Made by a program: the position numbers and the translations under genes | The notes under the pieces: model-generated | Databases searched by the model: none | Told to the model about the DNA's origin: nothing | What the model saw: only the letters and a program-made list of their open reading frames with translations | Assembly: GCA_015143295.1 (NCBI GenBank) | Contig: CM026562.1 | Location: 43,509,323-43,573,322 of the forward strand | Source of the DNA: Tetracentron sinense | Lineage: Eukaryota > Streptophyta > Magnoliopsida > Trochodendrales > Trochodendraceae | DNA length: 64,000 bases | Reading direction: 5' to 3' | In this document: positions 2,616 to 61,485 of the stretch, piece after piece | Layout: every line of letters begins with the position of its first letter | Position numbering within the stretch: the first letter of the stretch is position 1

Positions 2616-2645
2616 TGATACGTGAGGTCTGAGAGTTGTTCATCA

Positions 2646-7190: not shown

Positions 7191-7195
7191 AGGGA

Positions 7196-19800: not shown

Positions 19801-22514
19801 ACATACATCATAAGGGTAAGAATGAAGAATTGAAGATAAATATAATTTTTCTAATAATATATGCAACCAGGTTGGCCAATTACATAACGAGTTTAGAGGG
19901 AGTAACATTTTCATTACGGTAATTAAAGGACGCTATGGGATACATCCAAAGGAGTTTCTGAAATTGGAACTTTGATTTATTGGGTAGGGATACAAATGGG
20001 CATAGTAGAGGGGGGATTTTGTAATTATAGATTTTTTTTGGGTAAGAGTGAAAATTGCCCGTATGTATTTATGTAGGTATTTAATCAATAACACCTTGCA
20101 ATATAACACCGAATTCCAAGCAATCAGGTGATGATGTCATAGGATTTAAGCATGATTGCAAATAAGAAAAATCTGGACCAGAAAGAATGGTCCTGAAATT
20201 TAGAGTGATCCAAAACAGCCAGAGTATAAAAACAACAAGAAACACATCTAGGAAAGAAAATTATACTTGTGTCCATCAAGCATAAAACATGATATATCAA
20301 ATCTTCTGAAAAATCCTCATCAAGTTATACACGATCTAGTCAAGGAGTATCAGAATCTTAAAGAGATGCAATACATGGCCAATGTACCTTTTGATATAAA
20401 TCCCAGCTTTCTTAGCTGTCGCATGTGAAGATTTTAGATCCTGGTACGAACCACAATTCAAACAATATCCAGGATCATTTTGAAAGGCATCCTTGGTTCG
20501 TTCAAAGAAGAGATGAGCCACTTTGCTGATGTCTTTTCTTTTCAGCTCGTCAACCTTTGGAATATCAGATATTTCATAGAAGAAGAAAAGAATATTAAGA
20601 TGATTCATGTTAACAGCAAACTTAGAGCTCTTTGGGGTAGTCCGTGATGATGATATTAAATTAGTTGCATGTCAGTAACCGATGCATATGGAGGGGAATG
20701 TGACCCACTATTCATGAGTCCTATTTTATTTAACCCCAGTTAACCAAATCAGATGAATTTAACATCTTTTTTATAAAAAAAAATGTTCCGTCTATTTAAC
20801 ATATCCTTTTGTGATTGTTCAAGAGAATAATATATAGACTTGATTGTTAAGGTCGTTCACTCAAGTCAAATTTTGGATCGGAAATTTCCAATTAGGCGAG
20901 ACCCATAAGTGGGTCGCATTCAATCATTACCCATGCTTGTCCAGCAGAATCCTGGTATGCAACTGCAAGACAATACTTACGGTCCACCTGAATCCTGATG
21001 GCCACCCTAGATTAACTTCAGTGTTCATTAAACAGAGTATCATTTCTGAAAATATTGTTGTCCAAAAGAAATTCACAGATACTTGAATTGGGAGATAATA
21101 GCATACAGGAAAACGGCGCTCCAAGCTGCAGTTTTTGGGACCACCTTGTAATATCTTCTTTCCTTCTTGATTGGCCATACAGCTATCTAAGACTGTGCCA
21201 AAACAGTTTGGTTTCGCACAACGAAACGCATTTATAACAAGGTCTGGAAGATTCAGCTCTAAACAACCACTGCAGCAGCATTTAAATGAGTACTGATCTT
21301 CCAGTAATTTTTGGCGGTCTTTCTGATCCCATTGCCCAACCTGCCAAACAAAAAATGTAAAGCTTTTGTTCAGTTCTAAACAATCGGTGCACTGGAATAG
21401 GTGTGTAACAGTTCTAAACAATCCAAAACAAAATGTACACACCAACAACATGCATAAACACCATAGTAGCTCCAGGCCAATCAGACTCGGAGCTCATAAG
21501 TAAATGAATGCAGTATGAAAAATTACTGATAATTAGATATTAAGAGAGGGATAGTAGCTGGCAATTCTCAGTAGCATACCTGTGGGCCATAAGATAGCTC
21601 CAGGGGTTCCTTTGATGCTACAAATTCTGTTGATCGTACAAGGAGGGTACGTGAAAGGAAATATGCATGAATGTTTGGCTGGCACGAATGGTTAAACAAA
21701 CTACCAATTGAATAAATGGCTTGACCTACTCTGACCTATGAAAATGACAAAAATCACAGACCAAAGTGATCAGAAAAAACACCGTTTATGACTATTTAAT
21801 ATGAAAGTAAGCCAATCACCAACATTTTCAAGTAAATAAAATGGGGATTCGAGTTACAGATTAAAAAAAATACTCACAGTATGCAACTTCCTCAACCATA
21901 AAGTATTAACTTGTATAATTATCCTATCCATGCAAAAACATAAAATGGAAGTATACAGGAAATAGCAGTGAAACTGTGAAAGCCTGTTCGAGTACATTCA
22001 GTAATTCCTACATTAGTAGAAAGATAATAATAAATAAGTAAATAAAAACTGGCAAACAAGACAAAATGAGAACCAAATGCCATTGTTTGATATTTAGTAT
22101 TATACACTACAAGAACTGCTGTAGTGCGGGGCTCTGACTAGGGGTGTATTCAAGCAAAGCCAGCTCAAAGGCTCGGCTCGATCAAGCCAAGCTTTTTGGC
22201 TTGATCGAGTTGAGCCGAGCCAAGCTTTTTTTCGAGCTCGAATTTTCAATCAAGCTGAGCTCAAGCCAGGCCCATTTGATTCAGCTCAGCTCAGCTTAAA
22301 ATATTTATAATATAATAATAATATTATTATCTATAATATTTTAATGTTTGAAATATTATAAACAATATTTCTTGTGGGGTTTTCTTTCGATCCTGTTGTA
22401 GGTTGGGATTTTTTTTTTTGTAGTTGGTTAGCGTTGAGTTTATTTTCTTGTAAGCTCGACGGCTTTTGTAGCTTTCCAGTTGGTAGTTTTCTTTAATAAG
22501 ATGAGGTATTGATC

Positions 22515-28500: not shown

Positions 28501-31500
28501 AGAAGATCCTTTGACAACTTCCAACCTCAAAGACGATACACAACCAAGGGAGCGTGTCAATACCAAACCCTACATAATAATCTTTAGAGCAAAAATATAT
28601 AGATTGGGAATCACCATTCTTTGCTGAATCTTCGGAAGAGGAGGTTCGATTATTGGGTTATCAATTTTTTATAATTATAAGGCAATTGGTGAACCTCTTG
28701 AAAAGGTGATTAGTGCAACAGTTTATGGTTTGACGATGAAAGAATCAAACATAAATAGATTTGAGACCTTACTAGGCCAAGCAATAGCCTGAAAAGTTGG
28801 ATGAGTTGAAAAGGTGTAGCTTAACTTCTCTAATAGTTTATGATGACATATTCTTATGGACTTTATCTGAAAACTCTTTAAGATAATACATACATTGGAG
28901 TTGTCCAAGAAAACTATAGACGAAATGTCGTGGACCCTTCTAAGAAAAGTATGAATCCAACTCGGGGGGAACTTCTACTTCGGTCAAGAGAGAATGATTC
29001 TATTAAGAAGATGCCCTTCAAAGTTCAAAGTAAGATTTAAGAAACTAAGATGGGAGTATTGAGCAAGCAAAAAATCAAAAATCAAGTCAAAGCCAAACAT
29101 CAATAAAAGGCTCAACAATGACCTCGAGGGAGAGTTCTTTCCACAAGGAGACTTGATGCAGCCTTATCCTTGGTGGAGTCCAAGCTATGATGTCAACTAA
29201 TGCATTAATATGGTCAATGTGTAAGTTAGATGAAAATACAAAGTGAGGGTTTTCAAGGCCTAGGAACCATAGCTTGTGGTTTTCCAAAGGTTGACTCTTT
29301 TGCCAATGTAGACTTATGTCTTCTTCATATTAGCTCTATATATATAGCTTACCTTGTAGCTTTTAGTAGGCAATCATGGATTTTTTTTGAGAATTCAAAA
29401 TTAGCCTAGAGCTTCTAGGAGTTGAGTGATTCTCCATTGGAATTGAGTGATTCCACTCACTTGAATGAGTGTCTTCCCCAATCATCTTTTATTTTATTAT
29501 CAATTACAATCATTTATGGGCGCTTATATAATCATTTAAGTGGTTTTCAAGTGTCCTAAAGTCTCCATTTCCCACTTCTTCCCTCTTTAATTTTTGACTT
29601 CCATCATTTTGGTATTGGAGTAGGTTGCAGTTTGTGATGGATACAGAGTGTCCTCATTTGCAGAATTGCTTCAATTGCAAGTTGCAAAGTATGAAGAACA
29701 TGAGTTACTATCAAACCTGCAATCGTGTTATTCTAAACACCAATTCCTAGATTGGGACTCACCCCCAATTTCTTATGAATGTTAAGATGAAGGATGCTTA
29801 ATCACTGTTCAAAATCTGATTTTTAAAGAAGAAAATCTTATGTTGATTTCTTTGTCTACCTATGATGATCCATTTTATGGAATTCTTTAGAGGTTTATTC
29901 AAAGATGACACTTATGGTGACAACCACCCAAAGATTAGAAAATGCGTTCAAAAATCAAGCCAAGAAAATCACGAAAAGGAATTGTCACAGACCCATCCAA
30001 TGATGCAACGGATAAATGCTATTTCCTTGAAAGTAAGACATCAAAGACTGAGTGGTAGTATTGGGCAAATCGGAGGCCAAAAATCCAGTACCAACCAAAG
30101 TTATGATAACGAACTCGATGGTGAATTCTTTTCACGAGGAGATTGATGCAGCCAAGATATGTAGCCCATATATAGTAATGTATTAAGTTATGAAGACATG
30201 AAAAGCATGGAATGGACATGAACTTTACATAGTTGGTTTTGAACTATGTACAATACATGGGAACTCTTAGTGGTGGGTTTCAAAAGGTTAGTGCATGAGA
30301 ACTCTTAGTGGTGGGTTTTCAAGGCGTTAAAGTACCAAGGTGGACATTTCTACTTTGACTAATCAATGTTCCACCATTTAGAATCTCGTGAAAAGAAGCT
30401 ATTGTTTGTTGAGATCTTTTAGCCTAGTGCTTTGTTTAAAGAGTTGAGTGATTCCTCTTAGCTTAAGAGTTGAGTGATTCCTCTCAAAGAGTTGAGTGAG
30501 TCCTCTCAAATTGGGTGAGTGTCTTCCCAAATGATTTTTGTTTTGTTAGCTATTATAAATTGTAATTAGCCTCTGGATCAACATCAAAGTTTCAGATTTT
30601 AATTTTTGTCTCTTCTCTTTCTCAATGGGCAGCACCACTTTCATGCGCTGAGAAATGAAAATAATTGCAAATTGATATAATTCTAAATTGGCCTATTTTT
30701 TCAATAAATTGAGAAAAAGAAGTCACCACAGTTACCATTTGCCACCAACAGCATCAGCATGAAGAACCATACCTTCATCATCATAGAACCTAACTAAGAT
30801 AATAAACTTATAGTATTCTGGTTGTAAGCACATTTTTAATGCTTATAAGTGAAAGAGAGATTTAAGCACACCTGTGATGCAGAAGCCCCAGTTAATGCAA
30901 ATTCAGAAACACAATAATGCTTTATACAGTAAGCCAGCACAATGGAATAAATATGCAACTCCAATTTGCTTTCAGGATTCATTCGTACATAATTGTGAGA
31001 AAGCTCCTGCAAGAACAATGATAAAGGGACATGAGCTATCAACTTAGATCCTTTCAAAAGACACAAAGATGAGCAACAGAATTATAACCCAGTATACTAC
31101 ATATAGCTGTGAGAAATACCAAAATTTCTTTGGTCTTAGGAGCCCCCTTGGAATGATTTCTTTGTTCTATAGACTTCACTAGCACTCGACCTGCCAGTAC
31201 TATTTCAGATGGTAATATAACCGGCCAATTTACACCTCCACATTCATGTCTGTGTTCAGCAATGTGCTCAATGTTTGCATCACCGGCAGCATGTCCAGAA
31301 TTGGCCAAAGTAATGTCTGCAATATATTTTTCAACATCCCTTGATATACTTTCATTAAAAGAATAACTGGTTGGGTTGTTCCTTAGTTGTTGTCCTCCCG
31401 CTTGTACTTGGCAATGCTGAGAACAGTACACTGGTGTTGAACATGACGAACAAGGGATAAGATCTGCCGGTAGTTCATTCAAGCAGAAATGACAATGAGT

Positions 31501-34500
31501 TTCCCGACAATGCTTCAGTATGATCTGCAGATCACTGCACCAAGTAAGAGTCATATCCCAACTCAGAACAAGAACGGACCTTGGCTGCATTAAACCAGCT
31601 CCCATAGGATACTATAATGCCGGCAAATTATAGGATGACAAGACTGTTTTATGCAGAACTGAAACCTATAATTGAAATAGAGATACAAACAAATACTACT
31701 TGGATACTTCTGGAAGACAAGAAATAAATACATCTTACAACAGCAGTTAAGTCATTCGGTCACTAGAACATATCGTTTACAAAATAGTGATGCCACTCAC
31801 ATCCAAAATTCAAGCTGTATCTCCATTAGCTCTGCTTCTTTAACACTCCAAGTTGTGTAACTCTTCACTATTATTAGGAAAATCCCGGGTTCTCCCGAAG
31901 ATTTGTAAGGAACCCCCCCCTCTTTCTGTTTTGGTGGCTCAACACTGCCCCAGTATTTCAGACTTAATTGGAGGAGCCCCCCTTCAGTTTTTTTGATTTT
32001 ATCAATGGCCCATTAATACCAAAGTTACTGCTTTGGAAAAGGTTATCATTTAACAGATACAGGTGCATCAATATTTCATTGAGGCACAACTAGTATTCTT
32101 TATGCCAATGTACAAATGAAAAGAAAACAAGCAGATAAGTAGAAACTCAAAGAATTTTATATCACTTAGTAAGAAAGATTATCATCCATACCGCAGCATA
32201 AGGTTCTTCAGAATGAATCAGGGATGCTTGAGGAATGTCACTCAATGAAGTCATACCCCTTCCTTTGGTTGGTGTTGAGACACATTGTAGTTTTATTTGG
32301 TGTGGCACAACTGTCATATACAACCTATATTATTTCAGAAACTAAGAAAAATAAAGTGTGGTATCCTTTAGAAAAATTAAGATAATAACAGTTTGATATT
32401 TTCAAAAACAAAACAAAGAAAAACCAACAACAAATTCATCCTAAATTCTAATTGAATCTTTTTTGTGGAAAACCTTGAAAAGGTAAGCATGTAAGCAAAC
32501 TGAGTCCAAACAACAGACACCTTAACTAAGTTAATATCTAAGCCCATTAGCATGTCTATAGATTACATTACTGTCCTAATCATTAATCCTTGGGATGCAA
32601 TGGTATCAGAAGGCAAAAACTCTATTCTTTCCACAAAGCAAGATATGTGAAAAAAAATGGACCACGGAATAGGAACCACGTTTGGTAAAAATGCATAGAA
32701 AGTATTCCAGTAAGATGCTAAAAGCACTTCCAAAAGTTACTGGGAAAGGGAGTGTAAGAGATGCAAGTCATCTGGTACATCATACTAAAAAAGTGAGAAA
32801 ATTTTATAGTTTTTTATTTTCTTTTTATTTTTGTTTCTTTCTACAAAACTAATTTTGTATAGAGTTATATAATTCTTATATGTTGTTCAAGTGCTTTGAT
32901 TTTGCGAACTAAAGATAAGATTTCACTGTTGAGCAGTTCAGCTTAGTTGAGCCTGACGCAGATAATAATTGCCGAGCTTGAGGCTTGCCACTAGTTCCAG
33001 CCAAGCCTGAACTGAAACCAAGATTTATAAGCCTATTAAAGCTCGGCTTATCTTGGCTTGTTGAAGCTCCTAGTCAAAATACGAAAGTAACTTGTTTGGA
33101 ACATTTACATAATACTATATGAAAATGCTCAACAGTAGTAAAATTATTACTCAATATAGATAAAGAGGGTTGGGAGAAAACATTTCGTCATTTCCTATGT
33201 ACAGAAAGGTTGAAAGCACTCTCTTTAACTAAGGTACCCACTTCCTCGTTAGCATATCATAGAGTATGTCTAAATTCTAATGCACTAACAGTGAGCTTGG
33301 GAACACAGATTTCTAGTCCACCAGAGGAGCACTATGCTAGCATCATAGATAAAATGGGGTCCTTGGGAAGAAACAAATAAAATATTCTTTAATGTATTAT
33401 CTTTTCTCTAGGTGTCTCATTTAGTTTCCATCTTTATATAGATCAAACTTGAATTAGAAGGTTTGGTTCTTTTGATAGTACTAGGAATGTGGAAAGTTTC
33501 CAATTTGTGTTGGTCTTGTAATTTACAAGTGACAAGTAGAGGAAAATAGTTAGGATTTCATTTTGTTTACTTAATTTATATGGAGTTATGGACTGCCCCT
33601 TACTTGTGGACAACCTTGACGTTATGGAGGATAAGTACATCCATTTTCCCCAATTGTTCTCCATTCCACTTCACCAACTATCTTGAAGCACGTGTGACCC
33701 TTTCCCCACCTTCCTTTCTCATAATACAAGTTCTAATATCCATCAGTGTTCACACTTCACTACTGATTTCCTCTTTCTCCCGATAAACTTCTAATCTCCT
33801 TGTATTTTATATCTAGAAGAAACTCTCTTCCCCTAATTAATTGCTATATTTTAATCTGATCCGGTTCAAAGAAATTTAATGAGAAAGAAAGAAGAGGGAG
33901 ATCATCCCTGATACACAAAGTGTGCTTATTAATACCTTACTTTGCAGAAGGTTCACATTTAATTTTTAAATTGCTCTTTGGTGTGAAGCCTATTACTGTG
34001 CATGGTCTATGGTCTATAATATCAGTGTGTATCATATAATATCGTATGATGCATACCGGTACTTGAGGATATACAATAAAATTACAGTATACAACTAATT
34101 ATCACGTGTACCATACTGTATCGGTGCCATATGCTACGGTTCTCAATGATACTTTGTGATACTCAACGACATATAGGGATGAAATGAAACGGTGTATCCA
34201 CACCCATAATAAAAATATATCTCAACAGAGACAATAGGATCTTCAAGAACATATTTATCGACCTTCTCTTATCAACATTATCCAATCCCGTGTAGCTTCT
34301 TGCGTAACTATGTCTTCCATTTTAAGAGGGGTTCAAGGTAGCGACATAGTCAGGGATTGAATAATGATTGCTTCTTCCGAGCCTTATTCGGAGCCCAGTA
34401 GGCCTATTTAAAGCCCCCGTTGATGGTGGGTTCAACTTAAACTTGGATGGTAGCTACGTGGGTAATCCATGGCACTCTGGTTTTGGAGGGATTACTAGAT

Positions 34501-35897
34501 ATAGGCTATAACAAGGCCAGGGTGTAGCTTAGATCCTCTGGGCCAGCGGTAGGGGTGGGTATCGAGTCGAGGTTTTATCGAGCATGTGAAGTTTTCAAGG
34601 TGTCCAATCTGAGCTCGATCCGAACACGAGCCGAGCTTTTAACGAGCTCAATTAAATATGATTATTTAAAAAAAAAACTTATGATATATGATCAATTTTA
34701 AAAAATAACCGTTTAATTGCAGTATTTAGTATTTTTAATTTTTTTTTATATTTTTAATAGATTTATATATATATGATCCGAGCTTATAACAAGCCGAGTA
34801 CAAAGGTGTTCAAGCTCAACTCGTTTACTAACGAGCTTCAAAATGGTGTTCAAGCTTGTTTGCAAAGCCAACCGAGCCGAGCTTTTATCAAGCCGAGCTC
34901 GTGCCCACCCCTAGCCAGGCATTAAGACTTTGAATCATGCTGAGATTATGGCCTCAAGCTTGCAATTCGTATCACCTTTTGCCCCTAATTGTGGAGGGAG
35001 ATTCGCGGGTAGTCATTAGGTGGGCAAATATATAATAATAGAAGACGATTCAAAGTGGGAAGGGCTCACATAATATGCTGTCCCTCCTTGACCAAGTTGT
35101 TAACTAGGTCATTCAAAAATTTGGGGTTCAAGAAAATGAGATATTTCCATGTATGACAAGATCAGGACCTTCCTTGATGGCATGATGACTACCTACGTTG
35201 GTGAAGTCAGTGCATTTTTTCTTCGGTTTTTAATATCTAGTTTATTTATTTATCAAAGAAAATTAAAAAAAATATCCTACCAAAACCTATAAGGTGACTT
35301 GTAACAATTCTGGTATTACCGAACCCATTATGAAGCAAAAGTTAGGTGATGATTTTGGCACAATTTATTGCCATGATCATAACCTTATAGACATAAAGAA
35401 ATAATATCCAAGGTCAATATGTTGAGTTCCCGTTGACTTAGGTAAGTCCTTGTTAACTCAGCTGCCTCCTCATGGTTTTGGGCCTGTTGGCCAAGCAGGA
35501 TGACCCGAGTCTCTTTGCCCATAACCCGTTTGGTGACCTAGTTTAGTTCACTCAGCCAAGTCCAGAGTTCTAGCAGCCGCTCAAGCTATCTCTAGCTTCG
35601 ACCCACCTGTTCGGGAGCTGTGATATTTGGTACATACATTGTATTTAATAGTGTACACACAACCAAGGTTCAAAATATTGGGATCAAGGTACGTATTGGT
35701 AAGTACAAAATAGGATACTCATAGTTATCGATATGTATCGAGGATACACACAAAAAAGCTGTAAAAAGTTACGAAAACGTAGGAAACTCATAGAAACTTA
35801 AACCCTACCTTATTTCAATTGAAAAATAACATAAAAATGGTAACTAGAGTCCTATAGATACTATTTGAACTATCGATATGAGTACAAGTATAAATAC

Positions 35898-35936
<39 letters not shown>

Positions 35937-38900
35937 GGATATATCAAAATAAATTAAAGCATAAGCATTCAATAAAACATTCATTTATTGGGTAATGGAA
36001 TACATAAAATTATCTATTTCCAAGAATATATATAAAGAGGTGGGCTCCTTCTATAAACAACAAAAATGAAAGCTTAACTATGCTTAATCATCATCTCATA
36101 CGAGGTTGACTACGTGTTGTGGTTGTGATTGTGAGAAACCTCCAGTCTCAACCTGCCTCCTAGTAGAACGGGCACTTCCTCCTTTTGAAGAGTCTCCATG
36201 CTCTATCTTACAACAAGCTGAAAATCAGGGTCCTCGTATGTAGAGATGAACTCCACCTCCATTGTCAAGGAATCAGAGAAACTTTGGGATTCCTTTTCCA
36301 TCTCAAAAGTCTGAATGTTATGTCTTACAGCTATCTAGAAATCAACCCCCTGAAAAACACGATACTCATTATCCAAGGAGATGGGGTCTATCCACATTGT
36401 CCCCTTTGAGCCAAATACCTTCTTGTGTTCCTTTTCCTGAAAATTTTTCAGTAGATGCTCCATTATCGCTTCCTGACCTCCTTAAAGATATGTAGGCATC
36501 CACTGACATTTATTCCCATATGAGCGTAGTGCTCCTTAAACGTAGTGATGCCCCCGCCCCCTTGCCTCCGAAATTATCTTAGAACAAGTATTTACACTTA
36601 ATCTTGTTCCTACTCTCATGATACACCATCTCTCCGTGATCCTAACTAATATCGAAGGATCTTCTAGGCATGATAAATACTTCAAATTTGGAACACAACA
36701 ATGAAAAAAATTTAATAATGTTAAACACAACAAAAGATTTAGACTGGGAAAAATGTCAAATATGAATCTAAGAAAAAAAAAATTAATAAATATTTGATTA
36801 GTTTTAATCAACATATCATAAGTAGTAGTCTACAAGTCTAATTGAACACCCATAGAGTAATCTCATATAAATATTTACAATCTAAATACATCATAATTAG
36901 CTTAAAATTATTTTCATTTTAGAATATTCTTATTATTTATTCTTAATATTCAAAGAATAAAATAAATAATGTACTATCCAAAAAAATAGGATTAGTGTGA
37001 GTATCTAATAGATCACCCTTAGAACACTAACATATAATAAATACAGCCATAAATGAAAGTATATATTTATTAAAAATACAATTTTCATGTACTTTTGAAA
37101 TTTTAAATAAAGAGCGAGATAAAATCTCATTGTTGAAGGCCATAGATCTATGGATTTGGCCACAAATCCAGAAATCAATTATTTAAAAGTATGTTTTCAT
37201 ACATTTTGATGGATTTAACACCCAAAAATTAGAGGGAAAAATGGGATTTGTCATACCTCGGTGAATAGTGAGAAACTCTTTTGATTCGATCCCTAAGGAG
37301 TTTAAATCCTTTTTTTCAATCCTTCTACATCAATGAATTGTGTTTTGTGGTAGGAATTTTTGATTTGGAGCTTGGGTTCACAGAAGAAAGAAAATAGTGG
37401 ATTTTTTTGCCCAAAAGATGAATTTTAGGTCTCGGTTTCGATACTTATAATATGCTCGATACGTATCAATCGTATCCATAGATACAACCAATATGGTTCG
37501 ATACGCTAATATACTCATGTAAAAAATTATTACATGAGAGTATCATATTGGTAAGGACAAAAACCGACAAGAATTGTGTGATACGTATCGAATCTATCGA
37601 TAAGACAGATATTTTGAACCATGACACCCTGAGTATAAAAATGCAGACAAAGTTCAGCCAAACATTTCTAAAACTAAGAATAAGAGGAAGTAGAAAATAC
37701 CTTATCCAGATTGTGGATAACCAACTAGATTGTTTGGGAGAAAGCATATCCTTATCCGGATATAGACAATTTGACTATTTGGTGGAAGAAATATTCAAAG
37801 CTTTGGATGTATCCAAACATTTCTTTAGTAGGAGTCAAAAAGTCATTGTTAATGCCTTGGGAGTTGAAGAGTCCTAGAGTAAATATCAATTAAAAAAAAA
37901 GAGTCCTTAGAGTAAATGATTTGTTTTTTCAAAGTTTTCTTTGATTCCAGGTATAGTTGCATTAGGAATTGAATGCTTGGATCTTCTTAGATGACTAAAG
38001 TAAATAATTTTGTTTTCAATGTATGTCATTATTAGGGTGGTTGATATAGAAGTCTATATAAAGGGTGTAAAGGGGTCATGAAATGTAAAAACAAATACAA
38101 TAACGAGAATTCTCGATATATTTTCTTAAATCAAATTCTTTTAGGTGGCGTTTGGTAACTCTAAATAATAAGAGCTTATTTGGGTTTTAGGGCTTATTTG
38201 GGTTTTAGAATGTTTGATAACAGGCTTATTAGACCTCTAGAAACTTTAAAAGTAGAGGAAAAACCTCTAAACAAATAAGTAGCACAGTGGTAACTTATTT
38301 TTTGGGTCTAAAACTTTAGAGCTTATTCTTTAGAGTTTATTTTTAAGAGCTTATTATATGTGAGTAGAGTTTCCAAACACACCCTTAGTTAATTTTTTTA
38401 GTTGCTAGATTAACAACTTGTAGGAGTTTTTCCTTCATTTCCCTCTAAGAAACCTTGGCTCCAATGGTGATGGGAGTGTATCAACTTCTCTTGAAACAGC
38501 AAAGTGATAACTTATTTTCCTGACTTCGTTAATTTCTTCTTTCAATCATTCATTGGTTGTTGTTATTGCTGAAACCTTTCCACGGCAGGTTGGCCTCTTC
38601 CATTCCCATGTTTATACACATGGGCCTGCTGTCCTCTTTGTCTCCCAACAGTTACATCGGGAAGACCAAGACCCCAACTTGCTCAAGCAGCACTAAGCTG
38701 AACAATTTTTTGTAGCAGGTTCCACATCTTCTCTTGTGGCCATGGTTCTCTTGTTTACTGTCTGAAGTGCTTCAAAATCCTCTTGATTTCGCTCCAAGTA
38801 ATTCTCACACCCAGCCATGGATCCATAACAAACACAGAACGGAAGTAACTTAGCTCTGATACACCACTAAACAAAATTAGGAGAATAAGTCACCACTTTG

Positions 38901-41087
38901 CTGCTTGAAGAGAAGTCATTCAGATCACCGTTGGAGACGAGGTTTCTTACAGGGGCTAATCTAGCAGCTAAAAAAACAAGATTTAAGAGAATCTATTAAG
39001 TATTCTTGTTATTGTTGTTACATTTCATGACCCCCTTACACATTTTATTAGACATCTCAATCAACCACCCTAATAATGACAATACATTGGAAATAAAAGT
39101 ATTTACTCTAGTCATCATAGAAGACCCAAACATTCAATTCCCTATGCAAGTAACTTACTTTGAACTTACCTACCAGGAATCAAAGCAAACTTTAGAAAAA
39201 TAACTAATTTACCCTAAGGACTCTTCAACTCTCAAGGCATTAACACAACTTTTTGACATATTTGACTTTTGAATCTTTGACTCTTACTAAAGAAATGTTT
39301 GGACACATCCAAAACTTAGGATATTCCTTCAACTAAATAGTCAAGTTGTCTATCTACTATCTGAATAAGGATTGCTAGTTGCTTATCCACAGTCCCCGCA
39401 TCCAGATAGTTAAGCTATTCTCTTTTTCCTCTTATTCTTCTTCTTAGAAATGTTTGACTGAACTTTGTCTGCATCAAAAACCAAGCTAAACCTAGCACGG
39501 ACCGCACGTCTCATGCTCGTTCAAACGATCTCAATTTTAAGCTCAAGTTTGGCTTCCATGACGAGCAAGCCAAGCTAGCCCGACTCCTTTAACTCCCTAC
39601 TTTAACTTCCATGTGTTTTCCTTTGTTTAAGTTCTTTTTGCATTTTCTTGATAGCAATCTGCATTAAAGTAAAAAAGGAGAAAGTAAGGAAGATAATAGC
39701 ACCTTTTGCACTTTTTAATATTAAATTAATTTTAAAGTAAGAAACAACACATCCCTCTCTCCCTCTACACCCTGTTGTTATTGTTGGTTTGCCATTACCA
39801 TCATATCAATCCATATCATACTTTACTCTCCCTAGCTGTCATTGTTAGCATCAAATCTAGCCATACCATCTTCCGACCGATAGTAGTTAAACTACTCGTC
39901 CAAGAAGTAGTGTTGGTCTTTAATTATATATCCAATTACGGTGTGCCCCGATTGTGATTGGGTGCATTCTATGTTATGAGGAGTAACAAAGATGAGACTG
40001 TAAAGGATCTTCTGGAACAACATATAGGTGACTTGGAGGTATTATGAATCAAGGGAATGTGTAATATTGAAAGACTGAAGCAACTTAGTGGCAACAACAT
40101 TTAACTGCATCAGTTGACATAAGCAAGGGAAAAAAGAAACTCCGAGCAAATTTAAACAATTGTAAAGATTATCTTACCAAAGGAGCATGAATTCTTCTCA
40201 TTGTGTATATCAAATGAATTGCTTGCCCTCCTTGTCCTCTTACATCGGTCTAAAATTAACTCAAGCTCACTTTTTATCCGCCTCTTTCCACCAACAGCAA
40301 GTTCCATATTCATGGCAATATTCAAGTCACGGATTGCATCTTCATAATTTTCCAAAGAAGCGTTTGCCTTACCTCTCCTATACCATGCCTGCAATAGATA
40401 TATTCTAATTTAAAAATAAAAAATCAATTGTAATATTTGAAAACCAGCTGAAATTAAATCTAAGCAGTGTTTTATAAGATGTGTGAATTGGTCAAAATAT
40501 GCATAATTTCTTAATTTTCATGGAGGATTATAATCCAATAACAGGGGGTCTACACCTTAAGGCTCACATCAAAGCAAGGATCAAGGAAAATACCTAGAGA
40601 CTCAACCGTAGAGGCTCACGCCTCGAAGTATGAGGCTCATATGAGGTTCACGCTTCACACCTTGAGGCTAGCCTTTATGTATATGACATGAGCCTCATAC
40701 AGAAAACAAAAATATGATTCTAGCCACAAACTAAGACTTAAATATCATTTTCATTTTTTTTGTTTTCGTTTTTTATTTGTTTAAAGTAAGACTTCAGTTT
40801 TTAAAAAAATTTATTTGGTGTCTTTAAAACCTTTTAGTCTCTTTTTCACATTAGTAGTAGACGTTGAAGGGATTTGGAGCCATTGGCCTACAATGTAGTT
40901 TTCCATGACTTCTTTGTGGCTGTTTGTTGGAATCATAAATATGCTATATTAATTGATGACAAAACATCATTTGTTTTCCAATATGTATATCTACATAATG
41001 GTAAAAATTAATTGAAACTTTTGTTGCCTCTCTTAAATTTGTTTTTTTTTCAGTATGGTAAGTGAATAATGTATTCATGTTTCATAA

Positions 41088-41137
<50 letters not shown>

Positions 41138-44100
41138 ATTACTTTGTTAATTTTTCTCATACGGCCCTAATATTCATGTAGAAAACACGGAAGCTTAAAC
41201 CTTGTGCATCGAGGATCACGCATCGAGGATTACGCCTCACGCATCTAGAGTTCTTAACATCTCGCCTCACGTCTACTCTTCTACAAATATCAAAAATTTG
41301 ATCCAAAGTAAAGAACAACACCAAATCATATAATTAAACCATTTATTTCCACTCCTAGTTGGCCTTAACGATGTTTCAGAATGAATAATACTGAACAAAT
41401 TCTAGCTGGTAGTAGTTCCAACTTTTTTTGGCCGGTAAATAGGCCAAAATCCTATAAATAAAAGGAACAGGATACAGAGGAGTTCACAAGAGTGAACTCG
41501 GAAAGAAACTAAACACAAAAGGATAAAATCCGAGATAACGATGAGGATCAAAGAGAAAACAATGCGAAAGGAAAGAAAAACTATCAGCTCCAGTTATCTA
41601 GCCCAATAAACCATGTCCTCTCTTGCAAAATGCCAAGAAGAAAGAAGACGCATGGCCCTTACGCAAAGCTGATCTGGATGAAGGGATGAGAGTTCGAATA
41701 CTCTCCGATTCCTCTCCTTCCAAATGGACCAAACAATAATCCCTGAGATGATGCTCTGGGCTTCCTCCAAACAACCATCCACCTTAACCGAATGCCAACA
41801 AGATAAGAAGTCTCGTAAAGTACAAGGAAAAACCCACCAAATACCCAACCACGAAAGAAACTGACCCAATATTCCAAGGCATAAGGACAATGCAAAAGAA
41901 GGTGATCAACTGATTTCTCCTCTTGGAGGCACATGAAAGAACCATTGGTCACCCTCCAACCTCTATTTTTCAAGTGATCACATGTGAGGATTTTGTCCAG
42001 CGCTGTCGACCAAAGAAAAAATGATACTTTGGATGGGATATTCGGATGCCACACATGTTTATGCAAGAAGGGCCACCTTGGAGGTCTCTAGAGGCCTTGT
42101 AGAGAGATCTCACTGAAAACTAACCCCTGTTATCACAGGACCAAATTCTGACATCGCTGAGATGAGGAAGAATATTAGCAAAGTGGAGGCACTCCAACAA
42201 GCTAGATAAACTATCAAGCTCCCAATCCTGAAGGTTGCGTCTAAACCTCTGACACCGAGATATATTATTATCGACCCTCTCAAGGCAAGATTGCATAGAA
42301 GTGTTCATGTCTGACGCTATTGCCCACAAGACTCTAAACTCTTCCTTGAGAGTTAGATGGCCACACAATCTATCTGACCAAAATTTAACCGCTCTGCCTG
42401 ATCCGACTCAAAATGAAATATGTCTAGAGAATTCCTGCCAGCTTTTCATGATGCCTTTCCAAAGGCCACAACCGTGGGATCCGCAGACGGGTTTGGGATT
42501 TCATCTCGAAGCCTCTCCGTACTTATGAAAGATCACTTTCTCCACAAGGACTCCCTTTCCGAGCCAAACCTCCACAACTATTAGCCTAAGAGAGCTTTGT
42601 TACACTCCACTAGAGGACGAACACCCAACCCCCCTTCCACGAAGGGGAAACAAATAGACTTCCAATCCACCAAATGATATTTCTTAGCACCATCTCTATC
42701 ATTCCACAAGAAATTGCATTGAAGTCTTTTCAAAATTTTAGCCACTGATGATAAGATGATGAAAAGCGAAAGAAAATATACTGGTAAATTGTTAAGACAA
42801 CTTTCGAGGAGAGTCATTCTACCCCCTTTGGATAAATGCAAGGAATTCCACCCAGACAGACTACTCTGGAAATGATCCATCACTAGATCCCAGATCACCT
42901 TATTTTTTAAACCAACCCCTAGCGGTAAACCCAAATATGATGTCAGGAGGGATCCTTGCCTGTACCCCAAACTGTTGCTAACCCCGATAGATTCGGCACT
43001 TCACCAATCCCGAAAATCATGCTTTTTCCCAAATTAACTCTTAACCCTGTCACTACCAAAGCATCTAAGGATTGCTAGTTGGGAACCGGTAGTTTGCACA
43101 AGATTAACTTATTGTATGCAAACTGAAGATGCGAGATAGAGAAGCCAGCCTGACCTAGGCCGAAACCCTCTAGGGTCACTCCATCCATTCTACTCATCAT
43201 TCTGCTTAGAATCTCTGAGACTAAGATGAATAGAAGGGGAGATAAGAGATCTCCTTGACGGAGTCCTCTAGAGCTCCTAAAATAACATGGGGAGCTGCCG
43301 TTAATCAGGATCGAAAACGAAGCCGAGGAGAAACAAGCCTTAGCCCCTCCATCTACTCCCAAAACCCATCCTTCGCATGATATATTCCAGAGCCCCCCAA
43401 TTTACGTGATCGTAGGCTTTTTCCAAATCGATTTTGCAAATCACACCCAGAATACCCAATTTGTGCCTCTCATCAATATACTCATTAGCAATAAGGATAC
43501 CATCGAGGATATGTCTGCCGCTAACAAAGGCACTCCGAGAAGGCGATATAATATGAGGGGGAACCAATCTGAGTCTGGATCCTACGACTTTAGCCATGAT
43601 TTTATAAACATTGCTCACTAGACTAATGGGCCTAAAGTCCTTGATATCCTGGGCATCTCCTTTCTTGGGAATCAATACTATGAAAGTGGTATTTAATGCC
43701 TTATAAAAAGACCCAGAAGAGTAAAGCTCGTTGAATAGTAAGATTAGATCATGACTCACTATGTCCCAACAAGATTTGAAAAAGGCCAAGGAAAACCCAT
43801 CTGGACCTGGGGCCTTATCACCATCTAGCTCCTTAACTGCCATCGAAATCTCCTCCCTCTCAAATGTCTTCTCGAGCCCCATAAGGTCTTCCGGGACTCT
43901 CTTAAAACCAAGACCATCAACACAAGGTCTAAACCTTTCTTATTCCGTATTCATATCTTTAAAGAATTTAACTACGGCATTCCTGATATCCTCTTCCGAA
44001 TCCTTCCAATTCTCGTCGACCTTAAGACAGGAAATGAAATTTATTCTCCTGCAGTTGTTAGCGATTCTGTGAAAAAACTGGGTATTTTCATCTCCTTCTT

Positions 44101-47100
44101 TGAGCCATTTAACCCTCGATTTTTGCCGCTAACTAATTTCTTTCGACCTTAAGATGGACTGAAATTCTAGCTTTAAAGCATCTCTTGAATGCTTGTCATA
44201 AGGCGAAATCTGCCCTAACTTCTCCTTTGCATCAATCTCTTGGATTTTGGTTAACAACTTCCTTTTGTTCTCAATCAAACACCCAAACACCTCCTTATTC
44301 CAGATTTTGAGCCATTGTTTGAGGGATTTCAGTTTTAATCCAAAGATGGTACTGGGAGACCCCTTGAAGATAGCTCCTAAGTCCTAACCACACCTCTTCC
44401 ACTACCTTCTTGAAATCCGGATGAGCTAGCCACATGTTTTCAAACTTGAATGGTTTAGGCCCTCCTTTAAGTCTGTTAAGATCTAGAAGAATAGGAGTGT
44501 GGTCAGAAGTGATCCGAGGAAGGTTGGTTAACAAAACATTAGGAAAGGGGTTCTCCCATACATCACAAAATAGGAATCAGTCCAATTTACTTTGAACTAA
44601 CCTATCTTAAAAGTTAAACCAAGTGCAAAGGGCTCCCTTAAGAGGACAGTCTATCAGATGGTGGGAAGAGAAGAGATGAAGTCCTTTAAATTTTCTCATT
44701 TGAGCTGAAATATGACAATCCTCTGACTTGTCTCGAGAGTTACGAAGGCAATTGACATTTCCTCCAAGACACCACGGTTTCTCCCATCTGCAGCTAACAT
44801 CGTCAAGCTCTAGCCAAAAGTCATCGGTTTCCTGAGGATTCGAACTTCGAAGGACCATGGATACCTGAGAAAATCAAACTGAAGTCGTCACCTAAAAAGC
44901 GGCACAAGATAGAAAGAGAATAAGCTCCGTCTTTTGAGTCTAAGACCTCTATAACTGACGAATCCCATATCACCAGAATCCCACCAGAGGATCCAAGGGA
45001 TGGAATCATCTTCCAATTACGATTTCGACTACCCCAACAATACATAACTATATTATCCGTCATCACTGGAACTTTGGTTTCCTGAATGCATAAAATTGTC
45101 GGACAATGAGATCTCACCATCTCCTTAATAGCGAATCTCTTACTCATGCTGCCCAAACCCCTTACATTCCAAGAAATGATTTTATTAGACATTGGGAGAC
45201 TCACCAATGCCCACGCTCTTCCTAGCTCTAACTCTTGAAGACCCTGAATCCCTGCATTCGTAGTTGACACTCCATGCCAGTCTCTTGAGTTCATTCCTTG
45301 CCCTCTTGGTGTTGCAAGGGGTTGCTCCCTGATGGTCCCTCCTCTCCTCTTCTTCTTTGATACCTTCCAACCTCTTGAAAAGTGCCCTCACCTCAACCTC
45401 CTGGTCAGTATAAGACAAACCTAAAACCTTCCCTACTGCTTCGATATTCTCCAAAACCCATGTTGTGACATTAAATTGATCTTGGACTTGACTAGGCTCT
45501 TTGTTATTAACCTCCGTCAATCGGCGATTTAGGATCTGATCTGCTGGCACTGACTTGGGTTCAGTGATGAGAACAGCGAGAGCTCCTACACTGTCACCAG
45601 CTAGTGAAACACCGCTGGAAACCTTCCTCACTTCAGCTGAATTCTCCACCAAAGGCAGGCTTGAAAAACATCACAATCTCAACAAATTGAAAAAGAGGGA
45701 TTCAAAGGCAAACCTCGAATAGGAGAGACCCCAGGATCAGCGAACTTTGAATTTGACCCTTCCATTCCTACTGGTTACCTGGGAGATGAGGCATATAGAG
45801 CAAAAGAGGATGAGATATTGCGAGGTTTCCCCCCCCCCCCCCCCCCCCCACCCCACCTCCCCACCCCCCCGGAACCCGCCTTGGCTTCCGTCAAACAAGA
45901 TAACCTCCTGCAAAATGGAGGAGAAGAGAACTCAAGATCGTTCTCAAAAAGACTCGTAACTACTTCAGAGGGGGGCCTTTTTTCTCTCTCCTCAGCATAC
46001 GAAGACGACCCGGCATCACCTAGGTTTGAAGGGAGAGCATTAAACTCCCCAGATCCGGTTCTACATCGGCCGAAGAATCATAATCAACTAATCTTGAGCC
46101 TTCCTCTTCAAATACCGATAGGCCCCTACTGAGCTTCCTGTCACACCTTGGACAGGGTTGATCGCTTCTATGGTGAAAGCAATCCCAAATTGATCTGGAG
46201 TAGGATACTCACTATGCGGAACATTGAATCGTGGCCCTTGCTCAGACAGAAGATCTGGAGATAAGCCTACCTCCATGGAAGGTCCCTCGAGACTTGCGGA
46301 GGAACCCTTCGAATGGTCGGATTTGGGGGACCACCAACAACTATCCTCTAACTGCTTCACGATGAAAGGAGAAGATGAAGGAGAATCTATGGCTGAAACC
46401 GAACTGACCTCTGAGGTTCCACTAGCATCATTGACTACTGCGCCTGGCCTGACCAATTGGGAAGGAGAGGATCCCTTCTGAAAGCTGAGATTGTTGAGAA
46501 AATGAGAAGAGATCTCAGACATTGGAGCTTTCATTTGAGGTTTAGGAAAACCTGGTTTTTTTACGACCATAAGATGAGGGGCAGACATTAAACGAGTCTT
46601 CAACATCTTGCATGGGCTTGAGTGTGGGAGGCCCGTAGGGCATCGAGGCCTTGGCTCGGATATGGGAAGCCTCAAGGGTCGAATTCAGGCCCACATTAGA
46701 AAGAAGGACAAGAGGCCCTCTATGAGGAGGAAGCAGATGCGAGTTGGATTGGGATGGACCCACACATTGTGGATTTAGCTCCTCACATGCCACATAGCCT
46801 TTGAAAACGTTTCTAGAGACAAGAGGTTCCTTTGGACTTTTTCCATTATTCATTCTAAAATCAGAACCTTTCTCTTCTGGAGTCTATGCTGCTCCCTACT
46901 CGAGGTTTGATAGAGACTGTCTGAAAAGAGTGAAAGACCCCTGGATGACAGAGGAGTTTTCTCAGGATAAGGCAGACGGACTGGTGCTTGGTTCTCTTCT
47001 AAAGGGTAGTCCTCTTTTGACCTGCTGTGCACTCGCTCCCAATATCTTTGCCTCTTTCTTCTTAGGCGCTGGAGACTCTTGGACACCACTGGGAATTTTT

Positions 47101-50100
47101 CTATTAAAGGATCTGCAATGGTCTTCCTGGTCTGACCCATCCCCGACAGTAAACCAACTCTAGCAGCTGTCAGAAAACACAATTGAAAACACTGTATGGA
47201 AAGCTGCATGTGAAATATCAAAAAGTATGACCATAAAAAATGCGCAAAAATACTTTTAACTGGGAAACCATGTAGATATGGTGGTCATCCCGGGTAGACC
47301 AGCACAAAAGGAATGTTTAGAGATGAGATGAAGGCAACTTTTTTATATGTAATAAGTGTTATTTTTCAGTAACAAATATAAGAATTATCATTGGACAATT
47401 AAAACTTGTTGGTAAGAACCATCAAGAATCTCATAGCTGTTGTTACAACTTAGAAGTGTACCATGTCGTGGCATATTTCCCAAGTGATGGAAAAATATTA
47501 TTGCCATTCAAACTGCAGACACGTCTATATTACCGTTGTTTTTCAATATATATATATTACGACAAAATGGCGAAAGCATAAATGAACTTTTGCACTTAAT
47601 CATGTGTTGTAATACCATGAAGTGCCACTGATCTTAACTGACTAGACCAAATTCGCCTTCTTTTTTTTTTCCTTTCTTAAAAGGTTAAACATAGAAACAA
47701 GTTGATCATTCAGCGTCTTCTGCCAAGCACTACTGATGAATTGTACCCACTTCGTGGATAAAGAAGGTTCAGTTCCTCATCTACGCTAGTGTTACAAATC
47801 TTGTTCTCGGGTATTTATCGGCTAAAGTTTTTCTCAGGAGATTTTCAAATCTAGAGTTTTTTCCCAAATATTTCTCGCCTAAATATTGGCAATGATTAAA
47901 AATATAATTAAATTACAAAAAATAATAGAAAATAATACAATAATATCGGGTATTTCTTGCGATATTTTTTAAATATCGGTTAAATCTCGCGATGTTAACG
48001 TGATAAAAAGAAAAAATCGTATTTCCCGTGAGATTTTTAAAACATGCGACAAAAACGAAGTTTAAAACTTTAGATGCTTTTCTCGGGAGAAATTAGGTAA
48101 TTCTCGGGAGATTTGTAACAGTGATCTACGGCATCATAATGAGAAACAAACAAATAGAGCTAAGAGCATGTTCACCTTCACATAGATTGGGGAAAGTACA
48201 ATTGCCCGATTGCAGTCTCGTAATGACTCCACCAAAAAGCCCATTTTCTGAGGAAATAAAAAGACATCGATTAATAGATGAAGCATAGCTGCTCACACAA
48301 TGGAAATGAGAAGGTATTTCGTTTCTTGCACAGTTTCTCTATATTTCCTAGCTGTAAAATTAAGAGTGAACATGTTAGATTCAAGAACAGGTAATGACAA
48401 CACAACAATAATAATAAGAGCAGCTTGGCTTTGTGGCCAGTAATTATCCAGAACATATAACAGTTTTTCAATGGACATGTTTGTAAACTTAGTGGACTAC
48501 GAATCCATTGAACCCCACGCATATATCATGTTTTAGATCAAACGGTACCAAAATCACAACTTTTAGGTGTAGGATAAATACTATACTAATTGGATCAAGG
48601 AAGATGTTCTACATGCAAGAAGTTTGATAATAGGCTGACCAGTCCCAAAAATGGCAGAGTTAAATTTTAGGTGCAAAGGAGAGGTGTCAACTTGCGCATG
48701 GCCTGCGGTCATTATCAGAACCATAATACATACTAGGAGCTGGAATGTTCACATCATGTTCATGGAGGTGCATGTAATAAGAGCTGTTTGATATTGAGGT
48801 TTTGAATGGCTCCAAACAGGTAGTTCAAAGTAGGGCTGATATCACTCACTACTTTGCTCCAAACCTTTATGGGAATGCCTCCACTCTCATAGGAAGAACT
48901 TTGGACGATCATCATAGTGGGGGAGACCTCCCTAACTTGCTTTTATAGAGTGAGCACGCTCATCAAGTTCAACGCAGACAATGATACTTCCATCATCTCT
49001 CAAAGTTTTCGAATTAAAGACAACTTCTAATTCAATTTTCTTCTCGAAGAATGAGTCAAAGCAAAAAAAGTTTCTTTCAAGAACTCAATTTTTTGAGGAA
49101 GTGTACATACACTCAATAACCATCCATACATGCAGGACATTAGGCCCATATTTCTCATAAAATAATAGATTATAATTAAAACGATTTTTCAAAAGAATTA
49201 GTTTTTCTTACAAACTATCAGTGTAGTCAAAACTCAAAGCATCGAGGCGATAGGTGGTTCCCTAGGCAAAGTGATGCCTAGCTGACCAAAATTTACTTTT
49301 TCTACATATATTATATAAGATTTAGTGAAAGCCCACCTAGATCATAATCTAAGCGATAGGGATCTTGGCTAGGCGTTGCCTAAGCGACATTTTGACTACA
49401 CTGTAAAATGTGTTCATGAATAAAGCATTAGAACGAAAATCAACTTCATGAGAAAAATTGATGAGAGCTTTCAACGATTTCCCAAGTTTGTTTGAACTTC
49501 CTCAAGATTACATATTTTTCATTAAAATGGGATTCTCTGAGTAATTTCATCCGATGAGTATTGAAATAATACAAACTTCTCCAAAACGATAGAATGAATT
49601 CATCCCAAAAGAAGTTATTATCATTTTAAGAAGAGCCGAGACAACTTTCAGATCCAGGGGAACCAAAAAGATGGTGATCAACTAGCATGGACTTTCTTTC
49701 TTTCTTTTTTTGATAAACTGGCATGGACTATCTCAATAATCAATCTATTAGCCTATGTGATGATGACATGCATAATCCCATAACACTGTAAATGATGATC
49801 ATATCCCCCATTTTATAGAGGTTATTCATGTGAAAACTGGAAAGATCTTAGCGTGAATTCACTAATTTCCACGCATAACTCGGACCTACTTGAGTAGCAC
49901 CTACTCCAGGACTGTGTTGACTATCCGGCACTGTCGATTTTTTTTGAAATTTTCCCTTGATGAATAATTGTCGAACCCCGACCTGGTTACCTACCTGGTT
50001 ACCTATGCATATGCATAAACTAACTATGTTTAGCAACAACAACAAAATCTGAGCAAGGCCATATAATAAAAAGCAACATGGTCAACCAAAACCAAATATC

Positions 50101-53356: not shown

Positions 53357-53957
53357 CTAATAAAGAGATGGTCGTAGTTTTTTTTTTTTTTTTTTGGTCC
53401 AATGGGGGGCAAAGCCCACAAGTTACACAGAACAGAACCTAGGGGTGGTAACCCCCATTACATCATTCCCAAGCAAAACCTTAAGACTATCCGGGGGATC
53501 GACAAGAGTCGCCAAGCCAAGAGGAAGAGATAGCCCATGATTTGCAAGCCAATCTGCCGACGAATTCCCTTCCCTGTACACATGCTCCAAACGGCAATCC
53601 CAAGATCGTAAAATTAAATTCTGACAAGCAGTGATTAACGGGCTATGAGGATCACGAACCGTGGTTCCCTTCTTGAGAAGCAAAACAACAGACTTGGAGT
53701 CTGTTTCAACAAAAACCTTTCGGAACCCCATACTCCAAGCCAAGGCGAGACCGTGATAGATAGCCCATAATTCAGCCATGGTCACAGTGCAGATACCAAT
53801 ATTATAGGCAAAGCCGACCAACCACTTACCAGAATCATCCCTAAGCAAGCCTCCGCCACTAGCTAGGCCCGGGTTACCCTTAGAGCAGCCATCAGTGTTC
53901 AGCTTGACCTACCCCAAAGGAGGGGGGATCCAACTAATAAAGAGATGGTCGTAGTTT
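53357..53957 (-). mobile_element. 5'-truncated LINE with 24-bp target duplication
   Basis: Exactly the same 24 bases flank the insertion at 53357-53380 and 53934-53957 (core taataaagagatggtcgtag). The poly(A) tail appears as a T-run at 53378-53395. The 0.55-kb body is the RNase H end of a LINE. This is a complete record of target-primed reverse transcription with early stop. Confidence 0.92.
53423..53927 (-). pseudogene. LINE RNase H domain fragment
   Basis: RVT_3-type RNase H with the three acidic sites: VKLNTDGCSKGNPG (about 53905), AELWAIYHGLALAW (about 53780) and FVETDSKSVVLLL (about 53715), ending with HVYREGNSSADWLAN (about 53580-53535). One nonsense codon (TAG) sits where the family has Trp before VKLNTDG. 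From about 53893 to 53423 the frame is open. It has no promoter and is a dead insertion. Confidence 0.88.
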
Positions 53958-58617: not shown

Positions 58618-60153
58618 TTATCGAGCTTCGATCATAGTCATTGTCTCCTCATTTGCATAACTTTTTCCTGTTAGGGTTGCAAACAAGTCTGCACCATTGT
58701 GAGTTCTAATAACATATGCCGGTTGCTTAGGAAGAGGCAGAGTAGTCTCATTACTTAGCATGAAAACAACCGTCGGCATGGTCGGCCCATCTTTTGCACT
58801 TTGTTGCACGCACAAAAGGCCAACATGGATGCATGTCAAAACTTCATGAGCAACACATGAATCTACCATTGAGAAGTCAACTATATCCAAGGCTCTGTCT
58901 TCATTCCACAAGTCTCATGCCTGATATATATAGTTCCAAAAAATCAAATTAAGAAGAGATTAATAGTGATAGAAATGAAAGCAAACAGCTGTACTTACAT
59001 GCCCTATCAAATTCAAGGAGAGATCCTTATAGTAATAGCCATTATTTTTCTGGCCACTAATGATCTTTAATAGTAATACCCCAAAGCTAAAGACATCAGA
59101 TTTTATCGAAAACAACCCATTAATTGCATACTCCGGTGCCATATAACCACTGCATTAAAAAGATAGAAAAGTGATTCGGTTAATTTAATGTAAATAACCT
59201 AATGTTATGTGTATCTTGTTTACATCACGTACTTTTCTATGTCTAGCACTTACTATGTTCCAACTACTGTTTGTATTTGCTTGAGTTTGATTCCCTCCAA
59301 ACATTCTGGCCATACCAAAATCTGAAATTTTGGGGTTTAGCTCAGCATCGAGTAGAACATTACTGCCTTTCAAATCCCTATGGATTATTCTCAATTTGGA
59401 GTCTTGATGAAGATAAAGGACCCCTTGAGCAATTCCAACAATAATTTCAAAGCGCTTTCTCCAATCCAATAGTACTTTTCTAGTTTGATCTGTTCTAAAT
59501 TTGAATCAGAGATACACATTAATGCACAGTGAACAAACTTATACCAAAGAAGGCAAACAAAAGTAGTTGCATAGGATTCATACCGAAAATAAAAGAATCC
59601 AAGCTTTTATTTGGCATATATTCATACATTAACATCTTATCTTCATCTTGAATGCAACAACCTAAAAGCCCCACAAGATTCCTGTGCTGAAGTTTAGCAA
59701 TCAACATAACCTCATTTTTTAGTTCTTCTATCCCTTGTCCTGAATTCTTGGAAAGTCTTTTCACTGCTATCTCCTTTCCATTAGATAGCTGACCCTAAAA
59801 ATTATAGCCCAAACTTGCATCAAGCTAGCAACTCAATTAGAATATGCTTTGTCTTCACAGATTCAAGCACCATTTACTCATCTTTTTGCTGCACTATATA
59901 CCCCTCTGCAGTCATGCAAATACAAAAAGGCAAAAAGAAAAATGAACCTTAAAATTATAGACTTGTAAGATTACCTTATAAACCGGGCCAAAACCACCTT
60001 GTCCGAGCATATTAGCGGCAGAGAAGTTGTCTGTCGCTGCTACTAAAATGCTTAGATCAAAGAATGGTAATTCTGGATTGGACCTAATTTGTTCAAGGTC
60101 ATTTGTGCCCAGAGGTTCTTTGAATAACCGTTCAAGACATCGTTTCATCGCCA
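58618..60153 (-). pseudogene. Receptor-like kinase (S-domain/CRK type), kinase-only pseudogene
   Basis: Five kinase exons at 59975-60153, 59584-59794, 59254-59489, 58999-59149 and 58618-58920. Motifs: [57 protein letters not shown], and the C terminus MTMIEAR. The exon sizes 211, 236 and 151 match the conserved 211-238-151 pattern of this family except for a missing 2 nt. That loss falls in the activation segment after QTQANTN, where the family has R-V-V-G-T, and shifts the frame. The last exon opens A-stop-D-L-W: TGA replaces the Trp of the usual A-W-D-L-W. Ectodomain and transmembrane exons are not seen upstream, so it is 5' truncated. Confidence 0.85.
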
Positions 60154-61485
60154 CTGAACACAAACATAATAACTAATTCAGAAGTTGCTCTGTTGCTCAC
60201 CGAATGCTTCATTATAAAGGAATTAATTGGTATAAGATTGCCATAAGTACAGCCTAACCCCTCCTCACACACACACAAACTCCTACGTCCAACCCAAAAA
60301 AGAAATAAACATATAGAAACCAAGTTAACCTATGAGCATGTTTTTGAACTCCTTTTTTTTTTGGCAGAATTTTTCGAACTCCTTCACTTTTGTAAAAAAT
60401 GGAGTACTAAAGTTTGTATCTTTTATCCTATATGTTTTGTATCGTAAGGCCCAACTGAATCAGAGGGCTACACATGCAAAAAGGGAATGAAGAGATTCAA
60501 TGAACCGTGTTCCCTCTTTTGATATCAATAACATATAATAAAAAGGTCAAATAGGGTTTGTAGTACAGTGTCCAATCTTTTAATTTCAAAAGCATAAAAC
60601 CTATTCTTTGGTTCCCTGCTAACTGGCTTGATTGAGATGATGGTAGCTATTGCATGGGAATTTCGGTTCACCAAGTTTGCCAATCTATGACAAAGATTGA
60701 TGACATGGATTCATCGTCCTTGGATCAGCATGTCATATTTTGGTGTCCTTATAGTAATCTTGTTACATTGACTCAAACACTTTTCCAGATCTGATCTTTC
60801 AGCCCCATACTTAATAATCCTTATCTAATCATCTAATTTGGTTTGATCTGCACATTATCTATTGGTATGCATTTGCAGCATTTCTATGCTTTAGTAGTTT
60901 GGTTTCATGGTATAATTTGTGAGTAATTAATTATCAGTTAAAAGATAATTAATAGCCATTATGCGACACGTGGTGTAGCTACCCTATAACATGGAGATGG
61001 ACTAACACTTGTACAACCTTGCATCTGGGGAAGGCTGTGACTGGGGCTAGCAAATTCTTTATATAAAAGAAGGCTGTGAACAATGAATATCAGCCCAAGT
61101 AGAACAGATGAATTCAATTGGTTCTTGAAAGCAAACAAATGATGTATGTAGTTGATGGTAAACCATTACCATATAAATCTCATGTTCTTATAAAGAGAGA
61201 ACTCTAAATCATTTATTATAAACCAAATCCCTACTTCATTAGATTAAACCAAATCTCTATTATGAATGTTTGAAAACATGTTTATGACATGCATTTGAAA
61301 CATGAAATTAAAAATCCTTCTGATTGAATTTCATGCCACCTGACAAAAATTTCCAATACTGTTTTTGATATTTCCTCAATGTCACCTATCAAGCTCACCA
61401 AGAACTAATCCCCAGGCATTCTAAAGACTAAATTGGTAAAAGAAAAAGATATGAGAAGGGAAGCAAGTTTTAAAGCTACATTTAC
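60154..61485. other. Intergenic, no recognisable gene
   Basis: The extracellular (lectin/DUF26), signal-peptide and transmembrane exons of the receptor kinase would be expected here or further right, but none is visible. The stretch is A+T-rich with no repeats that I could define. Confidence 0.45.

Follow-up and report, generated by a model that had tools for sequence, protein, structure and literature searches.

The locus and its host gene

The window considered here is a stretch of 64,000 nucleotides from the Tetracentron sinense genome, in which the pieces of a predicted minus-strand gene flank two LTRs that lie in inverted orientation. On the upstream side of the gene is an exon with a TPR motif (40178-40388, minus strand), recognized from its splice signals and from a Pfam TPR_1 match whose E-value of 2.1e-4 is below the curated cut-off; it also matches a designed TPR fold (E 5e-5) when PDB is searched by sequence. 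On the downstream side is an open frame with a MYND-finger exon (31054-31611, minus strand), for which the Pfam zf-MYND match (E 6.5e-6) is above the cut-off. Its similarity to SMYD2 in PDB by sequence reaches an E of 0.89 only, ranked behind designed proteins, and no SET domain was detected in the frames scanned with Pfam.

Splice signals (GTAAG...TTTTCAG) and reading frames, both read by eye, delimit a putative host intron of 3960 nt at 36218-40177 on the minus strand. Its 3′ border at 36218 is tentative: without the small exon at about 36.2 kb the intron extends to about 32310, and the small-exon frames read by eye at 36.2-36.3 kb and 32.2-32.3 kb gave no Pfam match. An earlier, sequence-only reading had placed the LTR pair within a transcribed intron; the flanking minus-strand TPR and MYND exons, together with the splice signals, point to the same position and suggest that the intron is transcribed. 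In the searched genome (1.16 Gb in 1479 contigs) the MYND exon matches only itself (51 of 51 candidates scored), which rules out the use of a host-gene duplicate as an empty-site test.

Other features were also recorded in the window. Upstream of the TPR exon lies an L1-type LINE remnant (about 41594-46900, minus strand, its extent taken from open frames), with an RVT_1 match of 9.5e-13 and an endonuclease match below the cut-off. An open frame with an RNase H-like RVT_3 match (53423-53908, minus strand, 1.4e-30) is probably a retroelement remnant, and exon frames resembling a receptor-like kinase are found at 58618-60172 on the minus strand, the scanned part of which (59185-59505) matches Pkinase at 5.5e-14. 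The frame at 20927-21493 had no match in PDB by sequence.

Structure of the inverted pair

The inverted LTR pair reported at 37641-39474 is present. In a blastn comparison of the window with itself, 37641-38147 aligns to 38965-39474 on the minus strand with 72.0% identity over 543 gapped columns, and a second block links 38441-38530 to 38870-38954 with 77.8% identity over 90 columns. With the low-complexity filter on, the arms are the sole inverted pair at E<=1e-6 in the 64-kb window; an unfiltered blastn of 30000-48000 also lists AT-rich simple-repeat inverted pairs. When gaps and the MITE described below are excluded, the arms are identical at 470 of 549 sites, the 79 differences being 46 transitions and 33 transversions, with a further 14 indels and a K2P distance of 0.161.

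The LTR borders were set from other copies of the family, which start with TGATGCAG and end with GTTA. The left arm (37639-38531, plus strand), aligned to the right arm and to 30 other LTR rows, is an LTR without an internal region of its own; it begins with AA at 37639, where other copies have TG, and its U5 end is GTTA at 38531. The right arm (38869-39476, minus strand) is an LTR of the same family that starts with TGATGCAG at 39476 and is directly followed, at about 38853-38866, by the primer-binding-site-like (PBS-like) motif TGGTGTATCAGAGC, which we take to be of the initiator-tRNA type. Since it adjoins this motif, the right LTR is a 5′ LTR. The two arms had been described as lying head to head, but they are arranged tail to tail, with the U3 starts outside and the U5 ends inside.

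Target-site duplications (TSDs) were checked at 21 LTRs of the family. Perfect 5-bp duplications occur at L019, L025 and L032, and four of the five bases agree at L012 and L033, while the remaining 16 LTRs have 0 to 3 of 5 bases, and several of these are 5′ LTRs or lack one of their ends. For the present pair, comparison of the flanks by eye revealed no target-site duplication at the left LTR (TATAA versus ATTTC) and no 5-bp duplication around the whole composite (TATAA versus AAAAC). Immediately left of the left LTR, 37405-37630 is another MITE-like stretch (GGTCTCGGTTTCGATAC ... ATGACACC).

The loop between the arms (38532-38868, minus strand) is 337 nt long and consists of the leader of the right-hand element and a broken gag start. 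It matches, in whole or in part, the region that follows the LTR in L009, L018, L020, L021 (72 bases only), L030, L037 and L046. The description of the loop as carrying a primer site and a gag start is borne out as far as the PBS-like site and the relation to the leaders and gag starts of other copies are concerned, but the gag frame, tried across 38560-38835, contains three stops. The leader alignment with L009 reaches 38531, where the left LTR ends. The inner end of this LTR thus meets the leader of the other element with an overlap of about 1 bp, which suggests that the junction at 38531 was probably made by integrase.

A 241-bp MITE (38144-38384) interrupts the left arm; it is flanked by TTA at 38141-38143 and 38385-38387 and bounded by the terminal repeats GGTGGCGTTTGGTAACTCTA and GGGTGTGTTTGGAAACTCTA, similar 20-bp ends in inverted order. 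From the type of its terminal repeats and TSD it is presumably Tourist/PIF-Harbinger-like. At least 30 other places in the genome carry it with 93-99% identity over its first 107-125 bases, where the query ends (best 40 of 608 candidates).

The LTR family and its divergence

The LTRs had been assigned to the copia type. Under the standard rule, the two superfamilies are distinguished by their pol domains, with RVT_2 and gag_pre-integrs marking copia as opposed to gypsy. Domains were sought in five pieces from family copies (L013, L018, L020 and L046), whose internal parts match one another partly and lie outside the window. The stop-free pieces gave matches above the cut-offs to RT_RNaseH (3.5e-19), RT_RNaseH_2 (1.9e-17), RVT_1 (5.2e-14) and Integrase_H2C2 (3.7e-7), and one to Retrotrans_gag (5.1e-5) just under its cut-off; nothing matched in one of the five, and RVT_2 was absent from all of them. 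With gypsy-type RNase H, reverse transcriptase and integrase and no RVT_2, the family is, judged by its domains, Ty3/gypsy, and the copia assignment is contradicted. The window does hold a degenerate Ty1/copia element (2619-7224, plus strand; RVT_2 at 5.9e-30, and gag_pre-integrs), which is unrelated to the LTR pair, and its lack of any match to the arms was a further ground for rejecting a Ty1/copia identity.

Relatives were taken from the best 40 of 178 candidates for a query of right arm plus loop and from the best 40 of 135 for the left arm. Among these listed matches, identities are 66-83% over at least 200 query bases, with shorter pieces reaching 94%, and no young family member is found among the candidates scored. 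Divergence between the arms is similar to that within other family pairs: the arms have a p-distance of 0.155 (534 sites), compared with a family median of 0.182 (496 pairs, 8.7% of which are closer) and with 0.165 and 0.140 for two direct LTR pairs. Given that the distance falls within the family range and beside that of direct LTR pairs, the pairing between the arms has not been visibly preserved.

The tree was built from 32 LTR rows, that is, the two arms and 30 rows from 27 of the 28 other loci. It is star-like, with 2 of 29 inner branches starred, and looks as a tree might after one old burst. The row nearest to the left arm is the right arm (0.155), and the right arm has nine nearer rows. 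The closest rows of all, L014 and L028, come from segments on two contigs that are 92% alike over 3 kb and each contain a family LTR; they represent a segment that was duplicated after the LTR burst. The ratio of observed to expected CpG is 0.65 for the flanking intron and 0.46 for the window as a whole, compared with 0.26 (4 sites) for one arm and 0.18 (3 sites) for the other, and this depletion in the arms fits long-methylated LTRs, a hairpin not being required for it. A foldback transposon family was considered and rejected, as the composite is seen at 0 of the 28 other loci, 18 of which carried only 1.5 kb of flank per side.

Predicted RNA fold

The stem that had been expected from an RNA fold of 37641-39474 appears in the prediction. 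In the gene sense, and with programs that model a single strand free of proteins and of splicing, the minimum free energy is -766.5 kcal/mol, compared with a mean of -416.6 (sd 10.2) for 14 dinucleotide shuffles. Arm-to-arm pairs make up 486 of the 686 pairs in this fold (55 helices, the longest of 33), and 487 such pairs are formed when the whole inferred intron is folded. Folded alone, 37641-38140 has no stem of its own (z -0.64). A known RNA family or microRNA was rejected, there being no Rfam match at gathering score in 36000-40500.

Origin and possible function

The pair is probably an ordinary, decaying relic of nested LTR elements, a reading in which we place considerable confidence. 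A minus-orientation Ty3/gypsy element would have entered the intron, and a further copy of that family would have integrated in plus orientation into the leader of the first, about 340 nt past its LTR. Recombination (LTR to LTR, with another copy) or deletion would then have stripped most of both elements, leaving the lone left LTR, the 5′ LTR on the right and the leader between them, and the left LTR would later have been broken by the MITE. The pre-mRNA may fold such a pair into an imperfect stem, which would be lost together with the intron, and the arrangement would have no selected function. The simplest origin of the observed structure is that one element nested in the other in opposite orientation and that trimming came later. 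The replacement of a flank by recombination with another LTR, or by deletion, would explain the left border and the lack of a duplication at the left LTR or the composite. A comparison of five leader-side and two 3′-LTR-side stretches of other copies with the window found no further part of the first element beyond the outer end of the left LTR, and a second step is therefore assumed. Points against the relic also include the right arm's place as the row nearest to the left arm, a very stable predicted stem, and the many 21-mers of the arms (369 of 627 on the left, 381 of 588 on the right) that come within two mismatches of another LTR row.

A single event, in which the composite was inserted ready-made, is doubtful. 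According to this explanation, an aberrant cDNA arose by autointegration or by the joining of two cDNAs: a U5 end reacted with a leader, either that of its own cDNA or that of a sister. The product would then have been inserted with its U3 ends outside. This agrees with the type of junction and with the outer position of both U3 ends, and the AU test does not reject a sister relation of the arms (p-AU 0.589; the constrained tree improves on the free search by 3.66 lnL), which leaves some room for one-event origins. The tree is, however, too star-like to show sisterhood, which was accordingly dropped as proof of such an event, and the composite is without a 5-bp target-site duplication. Moreover, autointegration is described as a suicidal pathway (PMC2644782).

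The sequence-only reading had gone further and suggested that the locus may be a natural silencer of the related family, with the structure of Mu killer. At such a locus Dicer-like enzymes would cut the intronic hairpin, and the resulting small RNAs would silence related LTR elements in trans. The strength of the predicted stem and the likely transcription through the host gene speak for this, and any small RNAs produced would find matching sequences, since 64 of 627 21-mers of the left arm and 119 of 588 of the right arm occur exactly in at least one of the 30 other LTR rows. Still, two 21-mers and not a single 24-mer are found exactly in both arms, the left arm is broken by the MITE, and arms that differ as much as other family pairs, with the identities and indels given above, are far from the near-identical arms that give long perfect double-stranded RNA. 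There is no sign of a G:U bias that would have kept the stem paired (24 G:U-making transitions in the gene sense versus 22 in the other sense, p 0.88), and the region has no Rfam match. Nor is there a young target among the listed relatives, which are at most 83% identical over at least 200 query bases (best 40 of 178 and best 40 of 135). Silencing by the hairpin thus looks unlikely from these features, and we give a Mu-killer-like locus a low probability. It is very unlikely, too, that Dicer-like enzymes actively process the imperfect LTR stem within an intron of this MYND/TPR gene, itself present as a single copy, and that the resulting small RNAs keep the remaining family copies or the host intron methylated; if they did, an ancient nested insertion would have turned into a local silencer.

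A local inversion, in which the 3′ part of one element was flipped and its 3′ LTR thereby turned round, is highly improbable. Inversion within an element does appear to have happened in the family, at L045 (891-3572), the sole case among the 28 other loci with LTR pieces in both orientations; in the tree these pieces group as sisters, weakly supported at 82/52 (p 0.133 for 196 sites), and the arrangement is read as a local inversion with its break inside the 3′ LTR. For the present pair, however, both breaks would have to fall at LTR ends, whereas the L045 break falls inside an LTR. An assembly artefact can practically be dismissed: inverted repeats can be misassembled, but 79 differences in 549 sites, 14 indels and a MITE in one arm show that neither arm was copied from the reads of the other.

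As a decaying nested relic, the locus illustrates that a long hairpin can arise without evident function, and it serves as a caution that a stable predicted stem does not make a silencer. Were small RNAs made from it, the locus would show that nested insertions can create natural hairpin silencers by chance.

Comparison with known systems

Among the papers listed in literature searches, none deals with this locus. The arms of Mu killer in maize are near-identical, whereas the arms described here are non-coding LTRs with a K2P of 0.16 and without a live target among the candidates scored. The likeness is that both are inverted, transposon-derived duplications next to genes, for which a read-through hairpin RNA is possible in principle (PMC3440606). 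Mu killer is reported to contain two stretches of mudrA, each of about 1.3 kb, around an unsequenced centre and to silence lines with a single copy of MuDR, and antisense RNAs unable to form large hairpins are proposed as the main agent of its action (PMC3440606).

The miRNA-like hairpins of maize offer another parallel, as they also involve secondary structure derived from transposable elements and genes; in that study, secondary structure in maize genes and transposable elements correlates with small RNAs, weakly for those of 21-22 nt in genes (PMC10760457). Those structures were obtained with RNAfold in short sliding windows, reportedly of about 110 nt, while the present stem is a long-range one between two insertions (PMC10760457).

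There is also a likeness in structure to nested LTR retrotransposons of plants, in which one LTR element lies inside another. A survey of these lists the 5′UTR among the frequent nesting places and includes some pairs in reverse orientation (PMC6911290). In comparison with the nested elements presented there, both partners at the present locus are reduced, one to a lone LTR and the other to a 5′ LTR with its leader.
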